From an uncultured Flavobacteriaceae bacterium (GTDB taxonomy: Bacteria; Bacteroidota; Bacteroidia; Flavobacteriales; Flavobacteriaceae), in contig CANMSN010000008.1 of NCBI GenBank assembly GCA_947500585.1, positions 81,120 to 145,119 on the forward strand: a stretch of DNA of 64,000 nucleotides, given 5' to 3'. The translations under genes and the position numbers were made by a program. Below are positions 35,902 through 44,225 of this stretch, piece after piece; the stretch's first letter is position 1, and the number at the start of each line of letters is the position of its first letter. The notes beneath the pieces are model-generated. The model did no database searches. It had not been told where the DNA came from and saw only the letters and a program-made list of their open reading frames with translations.

Positions 35902-36894
35902 TTATCCGTTTAAAATTTTAACGACATCTTTAGCAAAGTAACTGGCTATAATATCTGCGCCTGCACGTTTTATGGCAGTTACTTGCTCCATCATAACCGC
36001 ATCATGTTCTAACCAACCTTTTTCGGCAGCAGCTTTTAACATAGCATACTCACCAGAAACTTGATAAACAGCTACAGGAACATCTACTTCGTTTTTTATT
36101 TCTCTTACTATATCTAAATAGCACAATCCTGGTTTTACCATCACAATATCAGCGCCTTCATCAATATCCATTTCGGTTTCTCTTATGGCTTCAAAACGGT
36201 TGCCATAATCCATTTGATAGGTTTTTTTATCCTTTGGAATATCTTTTACATCAACAGGAGCAGAATCTAGGGCATCTCGAAAAGGGCCATAAAAAGCTGA
36301 GGCATATTTAGCCGAATAACTCATAATACCAGTATTTATAAATCCTTCATCTTCTAAAGCCTCCCGAATGGTTAAAATACGGCCGTCCATCATATCGCTT
36401 GGTGCTACAAAATCAGCACCAGCTTGTGCATGCGAAACACTCATTTCTGCAAGAACTTCGGCAGTTTCATCGTTTATTATTTGTCCGTTTTCAATAATAC
36501 CATCATGTCCGCAAGCTGAATAGGGGTCTAAAGCTACATCTGTCATCACTAACATATCCGGACATACATTTTTAACCGTTTTAATGGCGCGTTGCATTAA
36601 TCCGTTTGGGTTTAGCGCTTCGGTGCCTTTGTTGTCTTTTAAATTTTCTGGTACTTTTACAAAAAGTAACACTGATTTTAAACCCACTTTCCACAATTCT
36701 TTGACTTCGCCCTTTAATAAATCTAAACTATAACGATAGTAGTTTGGCATCGATGGAATTTCATCCTTAATCCCTTTACCTTCTACTACAAAAAGTGGTA
36801 CTAAAAAATCGTTTGGTGTAATTATGGTTTCACGAACTAAAGAGCGGATGGCTTCGTTGGTTCTTAATCTTCGGTTTCTTCTTAGTGGGAACAT
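35902..36894 (-). CDS. hemB: Delta-aminolevulinic acid dehydratase
   Basis: Condenses two 5-aminolevulinates to porphobilinogen, the second committed step of heme synthesis; cytoplasmic octamer. 330 aa. Catalytic lysines are in MSYSAKYASAFYGPFRDA and VMVKPGLCYLD. The metal site reads VALDPYSACGHDG, with Asp/Ala in place of the cysteines of zinc enzymes, so a Mg-type enzyme is likely. Last gene of the minus-strand heme run. Confidence 0.96.
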   Translation of the reverse strand: MFPLRRNRRLRTNEAIRSLVRETIITPNDFLVPLFVVEGKGIKDEIPSMPNYYRYSLDLLKGEVKELWKVGLKSVLLFVKVPENLKDNKGTEALNPNGLMQRAIKTVKNVCPDMLVMTDVALDPYSACGHDGIIENGQIINDETAEVLAEMSVSHAQAGADFVAPSDMMDGRILTIREALEDEGFINTGIMSYSAKYASAFYGPFRDALDSAPVDVKDIPKDKKTYQMDYGNRFEAIRETEMDIDEGADIVMVKPGLCYLDIVREIKNEVDVPVAVYQVSGEYAMLKAAAEKGWLEHDAVMMEQVTAIKRAGADIIASYFAKDVVKILNG

Positions 36895-36911: not shown

Positions 36912-36940
36912 ACCTACAAGGTTGCTAAAACCTTGCAGGT
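36912..36940. repeat. REP-like palindrome (family B) between hemF and hemB
   Basis: ACCTACAAGG-TTGCTAAAA-CCTTGCAGGT: inverted arms with one mismatch. Same family and orientation as 37921-37949 and 38573-38605. It lies 8 bases after the hemF stop codon. Confidence 0.8.
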
Positions 36941-36948
36941 TGATGCGT

Positions 36949-37902
36949 TTATTTGTTTACCCAATCAATAGGGTTTTTCAGAACCTTTAAAAGTTTTTCT
37001 TCATCACTTCCAGCTTCTGGGTGATGGTCATAAACCCACTGCACATGTGGTGGCAAACTCATTAAAATACTTTCTATACGTCCGTTGGTTTTTAGTCCGA
37101 AAAGCGTGCCTTTATCGTGTACTAAATTGAATTCTACATAACGTCCACGTCTAATTTCTTGCCAATTACGTTGCACTTCTGTGTATGGTAAATCTTTTCG
37201 TTTTTCAACTATGGGTACATATGCTTCTAAGAAACTATCTCCAACCTCAGTTACAAAGTTATACCAATTTTCCATGGTCATATCATCTGTTTCTTTACAA
37301 TAATCAAAAAACAAACCGCCTAAGCCTCTGCCTTCGTTTCTATGTGCATTATAAAAGTATTCATCACAGCGTTTTTTATAATTTGAATAGAACTCTGAAT
37401 TATGCTTATCGCATGCAGTTTTACAAGTTTGATGGAAGTGTTTTGCATCTTCTTCAAATAAATAGTAAGGTGTTAGGTCTTGCCCACCACCAAACCAACT
37501 ATCAATGATATCTCTTGGCTCATTTACCCTGAGCGGTGGTTGCTGAGCGGAGTCGAAGTGAGCTGAAGCGTACATTTCAAAATAACGCCAGTTCGCATGA
37601 ACTGTTGGTACCATCGGGTTTTTTGGATGCAAAACCAAACTTAATCCACAAGCAAAAAAATCAACATCATCAACTTTAAAATAGGCTTGCATCGATTTTG
37701 GTAATTTACCATGAACACCTGAAATATTAACACCACCTTTTTCAAAAACCTTTCCGTTTTCAATCACTCGCGTGCGTCCGCCGCCGCCTTCAGGTCGTTT
37801 CCAAATATCTTCTTGAAACTTCGCTTTTCCATCAATAGCTTCAAGTTTAGATGTGATGCTATCTTGTAGATTTTGTATGTATTGGTAGAATTTGTCTTTC
37901 AT
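36949..37902 (-). CDS. hemF: Oxygen-dependent coproporphyrinogen III oxidase (with in-frame insertion)
   Basis: Oxidative decarboxylation of coproporphyrinogen III to protoporphyrinogen IX using O2. From the internal Met at 37902 (MKDKFYQYIQ) the protein has 317 aa, close to the usual 300. Seen: RPEGGGGRTRV, GVNISGVHG, VHANWRYFEMY, SWFGGGQDLTPYY and the RRGRYVEFNLV region. About 18 extra residues (about 112-129, ASAHFDSAQQPPLRVNEP) are encoded by a family-C repeat and replace the short loop before the SWFGGG strand. The frame continues upstream without a stop into a RAYT coding region (to 38556), so hemF may be made alone, as a fusion, or both. Confidence 0.9.
   Translation of the reverse strand: MKDKFYQYIQNLQDSITSKLEAIDGKAKFQEDIWKRPEGGGGRTRVIENGKVFEKGGVNISGVHGKLPKSMQAYFKVDDVDFFACGLSLVLHPKNPMVPTVHANWRYFEMYASAHFDSAQQPPLRVNEPRDIIDSWFGGGQDLTPYYLFEEDAKHFHQTCKTACDKHNSEFYSNYKKRCDEYFYNAHRNEGRGLGGLFFDYCKETDDMTMENWYNFVTEVGDSFLEAYVPIVEKRKDLPYTEVQRNWQEIRRGRYVEFNLVHDKGTLFGLKTNGRIESILMSLPPHVQWVYDHHPEAGSDEEKLLKVLKNPIDWVNK
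37515..37564. repeat. Family-C repeat inserted inside hemF
   Basis: On the minus strand: CGCTTCAGCTCACTTCGACT, CCGCTCAGCAACCACCGCTC, AGGG. It aligns base for base with the intergenic copy at 35828-35874 with only a few substitutions. The copy has no stop in the hemF frame and adds about 18 codons. Confidence 0.85.
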
Positions 37903-38556
37903 TGAAATTTCGGATTCTAAACCTACAAGGTCTTTAAGACCTCGCAGGTTGATATCAGTTGTCTGTTGACCTGCGAGGTTTTTAAAACCTTGTAGGTCTG
38001 TACCTAAATGATTATTAGGTAACGCTAAATATTCATTATGAGCAAAAATAAAATTTTCTAAATCATCAAACTGTTGTAGGACATAAGATTTGTTAATAGT
38101 CAATTGGGGTTTTAAAGTATTGTTCACATAGAATTTGAATGATGAGAACTCAAAATTTTTATAGTCACTAGTAATTTTATGATGCTGCGAGTTAGTATGT
38201 ATATACAGAATCACATTTTTTAGATATACTTCTGTATCAATTTTTTTTCTTCGGAAGTGTTTTTCAAATAAACTTCCCGTTCTGTTTTGCTGTTTATTAA
38301 AAGCTTTTGCATAGGCATTGAACAGATTAGAAATAGACTGATTTGCTGCTTTGGCTTCTGATATTATCTCTAATAAAAAATGAAAATGATTATCCATTAA
38401 ACAATACCCCAAAATAGAGACTTTATCAGCTAAATGTTTATTAATTAGATTTAAAAAATAGATTTTATTATCATCATTTTTAAAAATAGTTTCACCATTT
38501 ACACCACGATTAAAAATGTGATAATAATTTCCTTTCTCTAATGCTTCAAGTTTCAT
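37903..38556 (-). CDS. REP-associated tyrosine transposase (RAYT), in frame with hemF
   Basis: The first 218 codons of the 535-codon frame 36949-38556. IS200-like Y1 (HUH) transposase domain: YYHIFNRGVNG near 11-21, the HUH motif HFH (57-59) after N56, candidate catalytic Tyr82 in NAYAKAFNK, then GSLFEKHFRRKKI (94-106) and LYIHTNSQHH. RAYTs process REP hairpins. Residues about 185-216 are encoded by two inverted REP-like palindromes, and the frame then passes directly into HemF with no stop. A native RAYT would probably end near residue 184. Another REP lies 17 bases upstream of its start. Confidence 0.82.
37921..37997. repeat. Inverted pair of REP-like palindromes (BIME-like)
   Basis: REP 1 at 37921-37949: ACCTACAAGGTC...GACCTCGCAGGT. 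REP 2 at 37969-37997: ACCTGCGAGGTT...AACCTTGTAGGT, the reverse complement type of REP 1. The 19-base spacer holds GATATCAGTTGTCTGTTG. The pair forms the reading-frame bridge between RAYT and hemF. Confidence 0.9.
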
Positions 38557-38572: not shown

Positions 38573-38605
38573 AGACCTACAAGGTTTTGTAAACCTCGCA
38601 GGTCT
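38573..38605. repeat. REP-like palindrome upstream of the RAYT gene
   Basis: AGACCTACAAGGTTTT-GTAAACCTCGCAGGTCT. Same family as the bridge pair, between the GNAT gene stop (38613) and the RAYT start (38556). In minus-strand order it lies just ahead of the RAYT ATG. Confidence 0.88.
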
Positions 38606-38612
38606 TTCATAA

Positions 38613-39155
38613 TTACTCAATCTCTTTATACAATTCGTATAATTCCATGTTTTGTGGTTTTCCTCCTGGAGGTGTAAACTCATTCTGGAGTGTTTTTATC
38701 CAAGTAAAATTGTTCTTTTTAGCAACCTTAACACTACTCATATTACTTTTATGCGAAATGATTTGTAGCGTTTTTAAGCCCAATACTTCAAACGCATAGT
38801 CTGATAGTTTTTTTACAGCTTCTGTTATTAAGCCTTTGCCTTCAATACTATAATCGATAGCATAGGCAAATTCGCCTTGTTTTTTAGTCCAATCAATTTC
38901 TTTGATGTAAACCAAACCAACTAATTTATGGGATTCATTTTCTTTTAAAGTGAATAAAAACTCATCTTTAGCTTTAAACTGTTTAACTTTTTTAGCGACA
39001 AAGTTATTTGATAAATCTGGCGTTAAATTCTGCTCTAATGTTTTTGGGAAATAGGTTTTTAATCGGTCTTCATTGGCTACAGCAAAATTGCAGATGTTCC
39101 AACCGTCTTTTAGTTGAATAGGTGTAATATGGTATGAACCTAAACTAAGCTGCAT
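38613..39155 (-). CDS. GNAT family N-acetyltransferase (RimJ/RimL type)
   Basis: 180 aa with one GNAT fold of the ribosomal-protein acetyltransferase-like group: LVGLVYIKEIDW, an acetyl-CoA-binding SIEGKGLITEAVKKLSDYAF (about 105-125) and LKTLQIISHKSNMSSVKVAKKNNF (about 132-155). The target amine is unknown. It overlaps the start region of its upstream neighbour's stop by 11 bases, inside the heme gene run. Confidence 0.85.
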   Translation of the reverse strand: MQLSLGSYHITPIQLKDGWNICNFAVANEDRLKTYFPKTLEQNLTPDLSNNFVAKKVKQFKAKDEFLFTLKENESHKLVGLVYIKEIDWTKKQGEFAYAIDYSIEGKGLITEAVKKLSDYAFEVLGLKTLQIISHKSNMSSVKVAKKNNFTWIKTLQNEFTPPGGKPQNMELYELYKEIE

Positions 39156-40035: not shown

Positions 40036-41067
40036 TTAAGAGGGGCTTTTATATTCCTTTACAGCATCAATAAATGCCTTGGCATTATCTAAACCAATGT
40101 TAGGTAAAATGCCGTGGCCGAGGTTTACGATGTATTTGTCTTTACCAAATTCGTTAATCATTTGCTGTACCATTTTCTTGATTTCTGCAGGTGGAGAAAA
40201 CAAGCGTGTTGGGTCGAAATTACCTTGTAACGTAATGTTTCCACCAGTTAAATAGCGAGCGTTTTGAGCAGAACATGTCCAATCAACACCAAGAGCTGAA
40301 GCACCAGACTTTGCCATTTCACCGAGTGCAAACCAACAGCCTTTTCCAAAAGCGATAACGGGCGCATCGTCTTTTAAAGCGTCAATGATTTGTTGAATAT
40401 ATTGCCATGAAAATTCTTGATAATCGACAGGCGAGAGCATGCCTCCCCAAGAATCGAATACCTGAACAGCGTTACACCCTGCTTTTACTTTTTCCTTTAA
40501 ATAAGCAATAGTAGTATCTGTAATTTTCTGTAATAATTGATGCGCTGCAATAGGGTTAGTAAAGCAAAACTCTTTGGTTTTATCAAAGTTTTTACTGCCT
40601 TGTCCTTGTACGCAATAGCATAAAATAGTCCATGGCGAACCAGCGAAACCTATTAACGGAATTTCGTCGTTTAGTTTTTCTTTAGTTGCTTTTATGGCTT
40701 CGTAAACATAACTAAGACTGTCTTTTACGTCTGGAACAATGACATTGTCAACATCTTTTTGAGAACGCACAGGATTTGGTAAATACGGCCCGAAATTGGG
40801 TTTCATTTGCACCTCGATATTCATGGCTTGAGGAATTACCAAAATATCGCAGAATAAAATTGCAGCATCCATTCCATATCTGCGAATAGGTTGTACAGTA
40901 ATTTCACTGGCTAATTCTGGTGTTTGGCAGCGCGTAAAGAAATCGTATTTAGCCTTAATTTCCATGAATTCAGGAAGGTAACGTCCTGCTTGACGCATCA
41001 TCCAGACAGGTGGACGGTTAACGGTTTCTCCTTTTAATGCTCTTAAAAATAAATCGTTTTTTAACAT
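40036..41067 (-). CDS. hemE: Uroporphyrinogen decarboxylase
   Basis: Removes four carboxyls from uroporphyrinogen III to give coproporphyrinogen III; cytoplasmic. 343 aa. The N-terminal signature [17 protein letters not shown] (about 18-34), [12 protein letters not shown] and the C-terminal GHGILPN are all present. The substrate of HemF is the product of this enzyme, and both genes are in the same minus-strand run. Confidence 0.97.
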
Positions 41068-42650: not shown

Positions 42651-44225
42651 TTATATATAATATTCATTAACCAACTCAATCACACTTTCTACAGTCGGTA
42701 CTTTAGCAATTCTAACATCTTTAAAATGTTTTTTAGCTTCTTTTGCTGTAGTTTCTCCAATACAAAAAGCAATCACTTCACCTGTATTGCTTCGAACAAA
42801 ACTTTCAACGGTTGACGGACTGTAAAACATAGCACTTTCAACTGAATCATCTACTTTAAAGCCATCATATTTTGTTTGGTAGGCTTCTACTTCGTTTACT
42901 TTAATATTATTTTCTGTTAAAATAGTTGGTAACGCATCTAACCGGATATCGCTACAAAAATAAGTAACTTCAGTACCTTCCAAATATTCAACTAAATATT
43001 CTGCTAGCTTTTTAGCATTTTTTTCGGTGTGCTTTACTTTACCTATTTTATTTTCTACTAAACGTTTGGTTCTTCTACCAACACAATAGATGTTTTTAAA
43101 TTGCAATTCTATGGCTGAATAGTTTGTAGTTAATGATTCCACAGCGTTTTTACTGGTAATCACCACATTTTGTATTTCATTTTTTAAGAAGCGCGGATGT
43201 ATTCTGTTCAAACTTATTTTTATGAAATCTGAACTTTCAACAACTACCTTTTCATGAAACAATAAGCGTTGGTCTTCGGTAAAACTCTTGGTAGAAAACA
43301 CATTGGTCTTTCTATCTGAATGCTTAATCTTATCCATTAAACGTTTTCCGCCACGTTCAATTATAAAATCAGCACAAAATTGTCCCATATCATTGTGTTC
43401 TCCTAGTTTTTTAACTCGGGTAACATCAATCCTTTTTGTACCATCCGGACTTAATAAAACGCCTTTAAAGTTGATTTCCTCATCTTTAATATAAGCCAAA
43501 GCACCTATAGGCGCAGTACAACCACCTTCTAGTTTATTTAGAAACTCTCGCTCTATGGTTGTGCAAATTTCGGTTTCTTCATGGTTTAATTTGGCACAGG
43601 CTTCTTTTACAAAGTCATCTTCTTCCAAAGCGGTAATCATAATAGCACCTTGCGCTGGCGCAGGAATCATCCAATCTAAATTAATCGCTTCTTCTGGTCT
43701 TATGCCAATTCTACCAATACCCGCAGCAGCAAAAATTGCACCGTTCCATTCGTTATCTTGAAGTTTTTGCAAACGTGAATTTACATTACCACGTAAATCT
43801 GTAATAGTATGGGTCGGGAATCGGTTTAACCATTGTGCTCTTCGGCGCAAACTACCTGTTGCAATAACAGCTTCTTTAGCGCCTAAAAACTCTTCATTAT
43901 CTTTAAAAACAAGGGTGTCATTAACGTTTCCACGTTTTAAAACAGCCGCTTGAATAATACCTTTTGGCAAAACGGTTGGTACATCTTTTAAAGAGTGTAC
44001 CGCGATATCGATATCATGATTTAACATCGCGATATCTAAAGTTCGGGTAAAAATACCAGTAATGCCTAATTCGTAAAGCGGTTTGTCTAACACTAAATCG
44101 CCTGTAGATTTTACAGGTACAAGTTCGGTTTTATGACCCGCTTCTTCAAGTAATTTTTTTACTATGTTGGCTTGCCATAGTGCTAATTCACTATCGCGTG
44201 TACCAATTCTTATGGTTTTAGACAT
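42651..44225 (-). CDS. hemCD: Fused porphobilinogen deaminase / uroporphyrinogen-III synthase
   Basis: 524 aa. The HemC part (about 1-300) makes hydroxymethylbilane: IGTRDSELALWQA, SLKDVP (Asp81), TGSLRRRAQ, and GGCTAP with Cys236 holding the dipyrromethane cofactor. The HemD part (about 310-524) closes the ring to uroporphyrinogen III: VVITSKNAVESL, YFCSDIRLDALPTIL, YSPSTVESF, CIGETTAKEA. Fusion lets the unstable intermediate pass directly to the second enzyme (inference). Its start overlaps the hemA end by 8 bases. Confidence 0.96.
   Translation of the reverse strand: MSKTIRIGTRDSELALWQANIVKKLLEEAGHKTELVPVKSTGDLVLDKPLYELGITGIFTRTLDIAMLNHDIDIAVHSLKDVPTVLPKGIIQAAVLKRGNVNDTLVFKDNEEFLGAKEAVIATGSLRRRAQWLNRFPTHTITDLRGNVNSRLQKLQDNEWNGAIFAAAGIGRIGIRPEEAINLDWMIPAPAQGAIMITALEEDDFVKEACAKLNHEETEICTTIEREFLNKLEGGCTAPIGALAYIKDEEINFKGVLLSPDGTKRIDVTRVKKLGEHNDMGQFCADFIIERGGKRLMDKIKHSDRKTNVFSTKSFTEDQRLLFHEKVVVESSDFIKISLNRIHPRFLKNEIQNVVITSKNAVESLTTNYSAIELQFKNIYCVGRRTKRLVENKIGKVKHTEKNAKKLAEYLVEYLEGTEVTYFCSDIRLDALPTILTENNIKVNEVEAYQTKYDGFKVDDSVESAMFYSPSTVESFVRSNTGEVIAFCIGETTAKEAKKHFKDVRIAKVPTVESVIELVNEYYI

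Follow-up and report, generated by a model that had tools for sequence, protein, structure and literature searches.

The window (i.e., the whole 64,000-nucleotide stretch of DNA analysed here, from an uncultured Flavobacteriaceae bacterium) carries on its minus strand a single uninterrupted reading frame of 535 codons (36949–38556), which runs from a RAYT (REP-associated tyrosine transposase) through a linker into HemF. The initial annotation had described both the 535 stop-free codons and a HemF beginning at residue 219, and both descriptions were confirmed. The parts of this gene are the following:

36949–38556, minus strand: RAYT-HemF fusion gene of 535 codons (open frame, Pfam, NCBIfam)
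38023–38556, minus strand: RAYT domain, residues 1–178 (end taken from the predicted model)
38380–38388, minus strand: HUH motif H57-F58-H59 (alignment of fusions)
38191–38205, minus strand: Tyr118 to Asn122, probably the catalytic tyrosine and the asparagine that binds the metal ion (alignment, 4ER8 profile, motif from PMC6006769)
37903–38022, minus strand: linker, residues 179–218, mostly two inverted REPs (palindromes, predicted model)
36952–37902, minus strand: HemF domain, residues 219–535 (Pfam, NCBIfam, Foldseek)
37900–37902, minus strand: codon 1 of HemF, an ATG kept in the window genome (sequence read)

By homology and predicted fold, the C-terminal part is a coproporphyrinogen oxidase. 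The Pfam model Coprogen_oxidas matches residues 223–532 of the fusion (E 5e-133), and the NCBIfam model PRK05330 (HemF) scores 411.5 bits against a cut-off of 297, corresponding to a full-length domain above both curated cut-offs (PRK05330, PF01218). A structural model predicted from 21 sequences (mean pLDDT 69.5, pTM 0.50) consists of two folded parts, with residues 180–216 between them at pLDDT <50 and some of HemF low too; when this model was submitted to Foldseek, coproporphyrinogen oxidases ranked first (2aex, E 5.3e-21). The N-terminal part is matched by Y1_Tnp at residues 11–121 (Pfam, E 4.7e-5, with 23.9 bits barely above the cut-off of 23), and its closest NCBIfam model, REP_Tyr_transpos, reaches 43.3 bits, below the cut-off of 80. 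While a PDB search with a single RAYT-part sequence returned chance-level matches only, a profile of 14 RAYT parts aligned weakly to E. coli TnpA_REP 4ER8 (E 0.034), and the same structure ranked 20th in the Foldseek search (4er8, E 1.9e-5, TM 0.68 by target length, 16% identity).

The linker is for the most part coded by two inverted REP-like palindromes, as originally proposed (37921–37949 and 37969–37997), and further REPs lie on either side of the fusion gene:

38575–38603, strandless: REP upstream of the RAYT (palindrome, pattern search)
37968–37998, strandless: REP 1 of the linker, core 37969–37997 (palindrome, pattern search)
37921–37949, strandless: REP 2 of the linker, in the opposite orientation to REP 1 (palindrome, pattern search, RNA fold)
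36912–36940, strandless: REP downstream of hemF (pattern search)

Searching the window for the REP pattern gave six strand-matches, whereas 100 shuffles averaged 0.00. Throughout the genome, a similar pattern with up to three mismatches matched 17 times forward and 18 times in reverse (reversed control, 0 and 0), and by our own count REPs occupy 19 distinct genome places, four of them at the RAYT-hemF locus. REPs that are also found elsewhere in the genome hence lie on both sides of the RAYT gene, and the two linker copies, likewise palindromic and repeated, are both intragenic. An RNA fold of the linker pairs its two REPs into one long hairpin of –46.8 kcal/mol (z –9.06, equalled by 0 of 200 shuffles).

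When the profile of RAYT parts was run over 397 genomes of this mostly marine family, 62 were matched at E <= 1e-10. In 16 of the 397, representing 16 genera, the RAYT match lay inside a frame of 490–553 codons, and HemF was in that frame in all 16 cases; as regards diverged cases, 16/397 is a lower bound. A HemF query matched 331 of the same 397 genomes, and among the matches listed at least 14 frames were long enough for a RAYT fusion, 13 of which, besides the window, were fetched and read. Among the best 80 loci from named genomes, 20 were fused and 16 had hemF downstream but unfused; the fused named genomes include Hanstruepera flava, Aestuariivivens insulae, Flavivirga, several Winogradskyella, Aequorivita, Gelidibacter gilvus and Luteirhabdus pelagi. 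Pooling yielded 32 distinct fusions and 22 nearby-unfused RAYTs (with gaps of –4 to 2360 bases to hemF), distinctness being judged on the first 150 residues. Among the matches listed from 395 genomes of the order, fused frames were seen only in G000, G148 and G180, all from the window's family, and none outside Flavobacteriaceae.

The fusion gene is thus genuine, and the RAYT-REP-hemF order recurs among relatives as more than a single accident. Since 31 other distinct sequences share the fused frame, a missed stop or frameshift in the window is very unlikely, and an assembly or sequencing artefact masking a stop, refuted by this recurrence of 32 distinct sequences in independent assemblies, can practically be dismissed. 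The claim that a RAYT is joined in frame to HemF by way of REP palindromes was accordingly supported. One further candidate, a Maribacter aquimaris locus (L137) taken for a fusion cut by the contig end, was rejected, since its frame consists of a RAYT and a REP-coded repeat tail and does not reach HemF. At this locus (L137:5001-5966), the hem-operon RAYT frame continues as REP-coded peptides in tandem until the contig ends.

Across the fusions, the residues expected of an HUH nuclease are well preserved. H57, H59, Y118 and N122 are all intact in 31 of the 32 distinct fusions, with H57 replaced by Gln in a single case (G157) and the other three residues present in 32/32; they are likewise conserved in 24/24 nearby-unfused loci (not made distinct). 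The HFH motif had been correctly placed at residues 57–59 in the initial annotation. In contrast, its candidate catalytic residue, Tyr82, is invariant, yet Tyr118 is likelier: judged from the weak 4ER8 profile alignment and from the class 2 motif Y---NP, as given in PMC6006769, the nucleophile is likely Tyr118 (with Asn122). Following Tyr118, the window RAYT carries NS where 31 of the 32 fusions carry NP.

Palindromes are a common property of the linker as well. In the 45 codons before HemF, and with one mismatch allowed, inverted repeats reaching 11 pairs or more were present in 22/32 fusions, versus 1/32 for control stretches of equal length in the RAYT, 0/32 for those in HemF and 4/32 when the best of 20 shuffles was taken. 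The window linker itself scores nine pairs in this test because its REPs are imperfect, with two mismatches each. The linker REPs are read in more than one frame, yielding DLSGFENLTGL, DLQGFENLAG and RPAR-type peptides. REP-coded tails are already present on unfused RAYTs beside hemF (L101), and together with that of the Maribacter RAYT they would fit the route supposed in the initial annotation, in which the stop of the RAYT was lost to a REP pair. REP abundance differed weakly between 16 fused genomes and 10 genomes without fusion (Mann-Whitney p 0.034, kinship uncorrected), and one genome (G231) has 36 REPs yet no RAYT match in the family profile search.

The initial annotation had framed the outcome as a choice between an internal HemF start and a fusion protein. 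Codon 1 of HemF is ATG in 11 of the 32 fusions versus 45/45 unfused genes (i.e., 22/22 with a RAYT nearby, 7/7 without a RAYT and 16/16 further genes); comparing the 11/32 with the 22/22 plus 7/7 gave a Fisher p of 1.1e-8, kinship being uncorrected. In the fusions, codon 1 is otherwise ATC (nine), ATA (four), GTC (two), ACC (two), TTT, CTC, TTG or GTG (one each). Between –25 and +30 codons of the HemF start, 19/32 fusions lack any ATG, and 14/32 lack ATG, GTG and TTG alike. Two extra unfused genes, chosen as likely exceptions since their match began at residue 2 and kept outside the 45, have GTG (G144) and ACC with an ATG two codons upstream (G121).

Because no ATG, GTG or TTG remains near the HemF start in those 14 fusions, HemF should there, on the simplest reading, be made only as a fusion. 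Initiation at ATC or ATA (codon 1 in 13 of the 21 fusions without ATG there) is uncommon though still conceivable. Judging from the codons alone, it is simplest to suppose that HemF's own start was unneeded after fusion and then drifted. The alternative, in which one frame yields two proteins, with HemF made chiefly from an internal start and the RAYT-HemF read-through a by-product of the open linker, strikes us as doubtful. It would account for the ATG that the window shares with 10 other fusions (GTG and TTG standing in one each) and for the REP hairpin stopping shortly before the window's HemF ATG, which is itself weakly paired. However, it runs against the 14 fusions just mentioned and against the 21/32 without ATG at codon 1, and since no stop intervenes, even then one would expect a long read-through product. 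The earlier choice was therefore sound, with a fusion protein the simplest outcome for 14/32; in the window the ATG survives, so that the 535-aa fusion and the 317-aa HemF may both be made.

The initial annotation had spoken of an essential-looking heme gene. The fused HemF was the sole PF01218 match in all 16 fused genomes, but 15 of these 16 also carry an over-cut-off HemN, so that HemF is not their sole route and "essential" is too strong a word.

The RAYT part was found to be under purifying selection in the closest pairs. For the 14 fused pairs closest by synonymous distance (sequences being shared between pairs, which are thus not independent), dN/dS was 0.14–0.44 for the RAYT and 0.05–0.08 for HemF; in the eight closest, it was 0.14–0.33 for the RAYT (0.14–0.29 in seven of them) and 0.05–0.07 for HemF. 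The short linkers ranged from 0.19 to 2.24, most of them near or above 0.4 and two saturated. The window's own nearest pairs gave 0.25–0.26 for the RAYT, with synonymous sites near-saturated. These values bear on the idea that the RAYT is an inert passenger (i.e., a defunct extension that HemF tolerates at its N-terminus), which would agree with its faster evolution relative to HemF, with the missing HUH histidine of G157 and with the existence of close relatives without the fusion. We regard it as unlikely, since the four catalytic residues are all intact in 31/32 fusions and dN/dS in the closest pairs is lower for the RAYT than for most linkers. Moreover, the REP type of the linker was the genome's commoner REP type in 13 of 14 typed genomes (Fisher 0.003), as assigned by eye and with the low REP counts of several genomes consisting mostly of copies at the locus itself.

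The fusion lies in an operon-like array with the order hemA, fused hemC-hemD, membrane protein, hemE, CysZ-like, GNAT acetyltransferase, RAYT-hemF and hemB, of which the following features are referred to here:

40036–41067, minus strand: hemE, in the same operon-like array (neighbourhood)
38613–39155, minus strand: GNAT acetyltransferase gene, upstream neighbour, adjoining hemF in relatives without RAYT (neighbourhood)
38602–38610, minus strand: ATGAAAGAC, separated from the GNAT stop by two bases, identical to the first nine bases of hemF
35902–36894, minus strand: hemB, downstream neighbour (neighbourhood)

Within this array, hemC and hemD form one 524-codon frame (42651–44225), and a constant hemC-hemD spacing of 121 nt in many relatives suggests that the HemC-HemD fusion is old.

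Fused and nearby-unfused RAYTs all fall into one clade of 62 (support 100/99). Of its members, 57 lie beside hem genes (32 fused, 22 nearby, plus L114, L120 and L137), and the remaining five have no hem genes within the flanking DNA examined. By comparison, hem genes were found at 0 of 60 other RAYT loci (1.5–5 kb flanks), and the other RAYT of the window genome (L039) falls outside the hem-operon clade. In some relatives the RAYT stands before hemE instead of hemF. The fusion is patchy, and since relatives with 92% identical HemF carry no RAYT, neither the fusion nor the RAYT is needed.

This distribution also bears on the proposal that the fusion ties REP processing to heme or oxygen status, with HemF serving as the nuclease's anchor, dimeriser or sensor. 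The whole RAYT lineage is indeed tied to the hem operon, even when unfused, and many genera carry the fusion. However, its loss in close relatives speaks against a needed link, and chance insertion followed by inheritance could alone explain the operon position, making such a coupling decidedly improbable.

How the unit comes and goes is illustrated by a fused locus (L132) and one without RAYT (L090), which are 89–90% identical on each side of an exact 691-nt difference, consisting of a REP-RAYT-REP unit between the GNAT stop and the hemF ATG (L132:4892-5582 vs. L090:5000/5001). Such gains and losses are frequent. In Winogradskyella litoriviva versus W. psychrotolerans, hemF is 90% identical and the cysZ-GNAT-RAYT block 75%, which suggests that this block was replaced. 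The Winogradskyella pair L145 and L149 has near-identical hemF and a divergent cysZ-GNAT-RAYT block, again as would be expected from replacement. In the window, five bases of ATGAAAGAC at 38602–38610 fall outside the REP-like AGAC; among the loci read, only the window has this copy after the GNAT stop, and it is possibly a relic of a hemF start that predates the insertion.

In the RAYT tree, fused sequences alone were rejected as one clade (p-AU 6.5e-6), but were not rejected together with three nested unfused sequences (p-AU 0.489), and at least five changes of fusion state were required. The HemF tree requires 18 changes of the fused label and has low resolution, with 5 of its 72 branches starred. 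Both a single fusion event that was later reverted or lost in places and more than one fusion event would agree with these trees.

Altogether, the locus very probably holds a true fusion gene that yields a single polypeptide, at least in cases where HemF has lost any internal start. The RAYT lineage of the Flavobacteriaceae heme operon sits directly before hemF and, because the associated REP palindromes are open in one reading frame, the RAYT frame continues across them into hemF. The resulting polypeptide would comprise an HUH nuclease, a flexible REP-coded linker and a coproporphyrinogen oxidase, and we infer that the cell produces it with both parts functional. As HemF would then depend on the RAYT start, any nonsense or frameshift change within the RAYT would cost HemF as well, and the nuclease would therefore be kept by translational capture. 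HemF is a homodimer, so that in the fusion two RAYT domains would be brought close to each other as well. That the HUH nuclease took over HemF's translation start by way of REPs, resulting in an active double enzyme and a protected nuclease, is the reading that we put forward, tentatively and as a little short of an even chance.

RAYTs are viewed as domesticated relatives of transposases, and their benefit to the host and the reason for their long retention are debated. A RAYT residing in one polypeptide with a heme enzyme offers a concrete way in which selection on another function could retain it. If true, this would amount to addiction by fusion, with repeats called extragenic acting here as protein linkers, and RAYTs may do likewise with other genes (cf. 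the RAYT-helicase frame of G246). The loci with and without the 691-nt unit (L132 and L090, respectively) form a natural pair for experiments.

The RAYT-helicase frame (L207:3018-6095), a second RAYT fusion unrelated to the first, encodes 1025 aa in which a RAYT is joined to a putative Pif1-like helicase, named by its motifs, and contains a perfect 33-nt palindrome in frame twice, i.e., inside the RAYT and in the linker. Full-length homologues of this helicase (>=63% identity) have frames of 806–870 aa, and a 1501-aa frame for a helicase homologue occurs in G182.

A second repeat family is found within the HemF part of the window:

37513–37569, minus strand: in-frame insert in a HemF loop, with CTTCGACTNCGCTCAG core at 37543–37558 (genome repeat search)

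CTTCGACTNCGCTCAG has 97 matches in the window genome at up to one mismatch. The HemF loop exceeds 13 residues in 7 of 66 distinct HemFs, and the CTTCGACTNCGCTCAG repeat is present in four of these (the window, L077, L095 and L096).

In the open-access literature searched, no report of a RAYT-HemF (coproporphyrinogen oxidase) fusion was found. The RAYT part resembles RAYT/TnpA_REP proteins, class 2 of TnpA_Y1 (4ER8; PMC6006769), in its HUH motif, Tyr-x3-Asn, fold, flanking REPs and low copy number; cleavage or joining of single-stranded REP DNA would be a candidate activity. It differs from them in being joined to a metabolic enzyme and in scoring below the REP_Tyr_transpos cut-off. REPs inside a tnpA_REP gene have already been described for subclass 2.4 (PMC6006769), and the present REPs are likewise located within a RAYT coding frame. 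Unlike those of subclass 2.4, however, they are C-terminal and bridge to a second gene; candidate subclasses for this RAYT would be 2.4 and the Bacteroidetes subclass 2.6. The TnpA_REP survey of PMC6006769 discarded unexpectedly long proteins.

Compared with the usual HemF (PRK05330, PF01218), the protein has an N-terminal RAYT extension, and HemF's own ATG was lost in 21/32 fusions. As an inverted REP pair forming one long hairpin, the window linker resembles REPIN/BIME-like REP doublets, from which it differs by lying within a protein-coding frame. Palindromic repeats in frame inside proteins are known from the Rickettsia palindromic elements, which insert into genes and are not known to be related in sequence to the REPs found here. 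Unlike these elements, the REPs of the RAYT-hemF locus join two genes.
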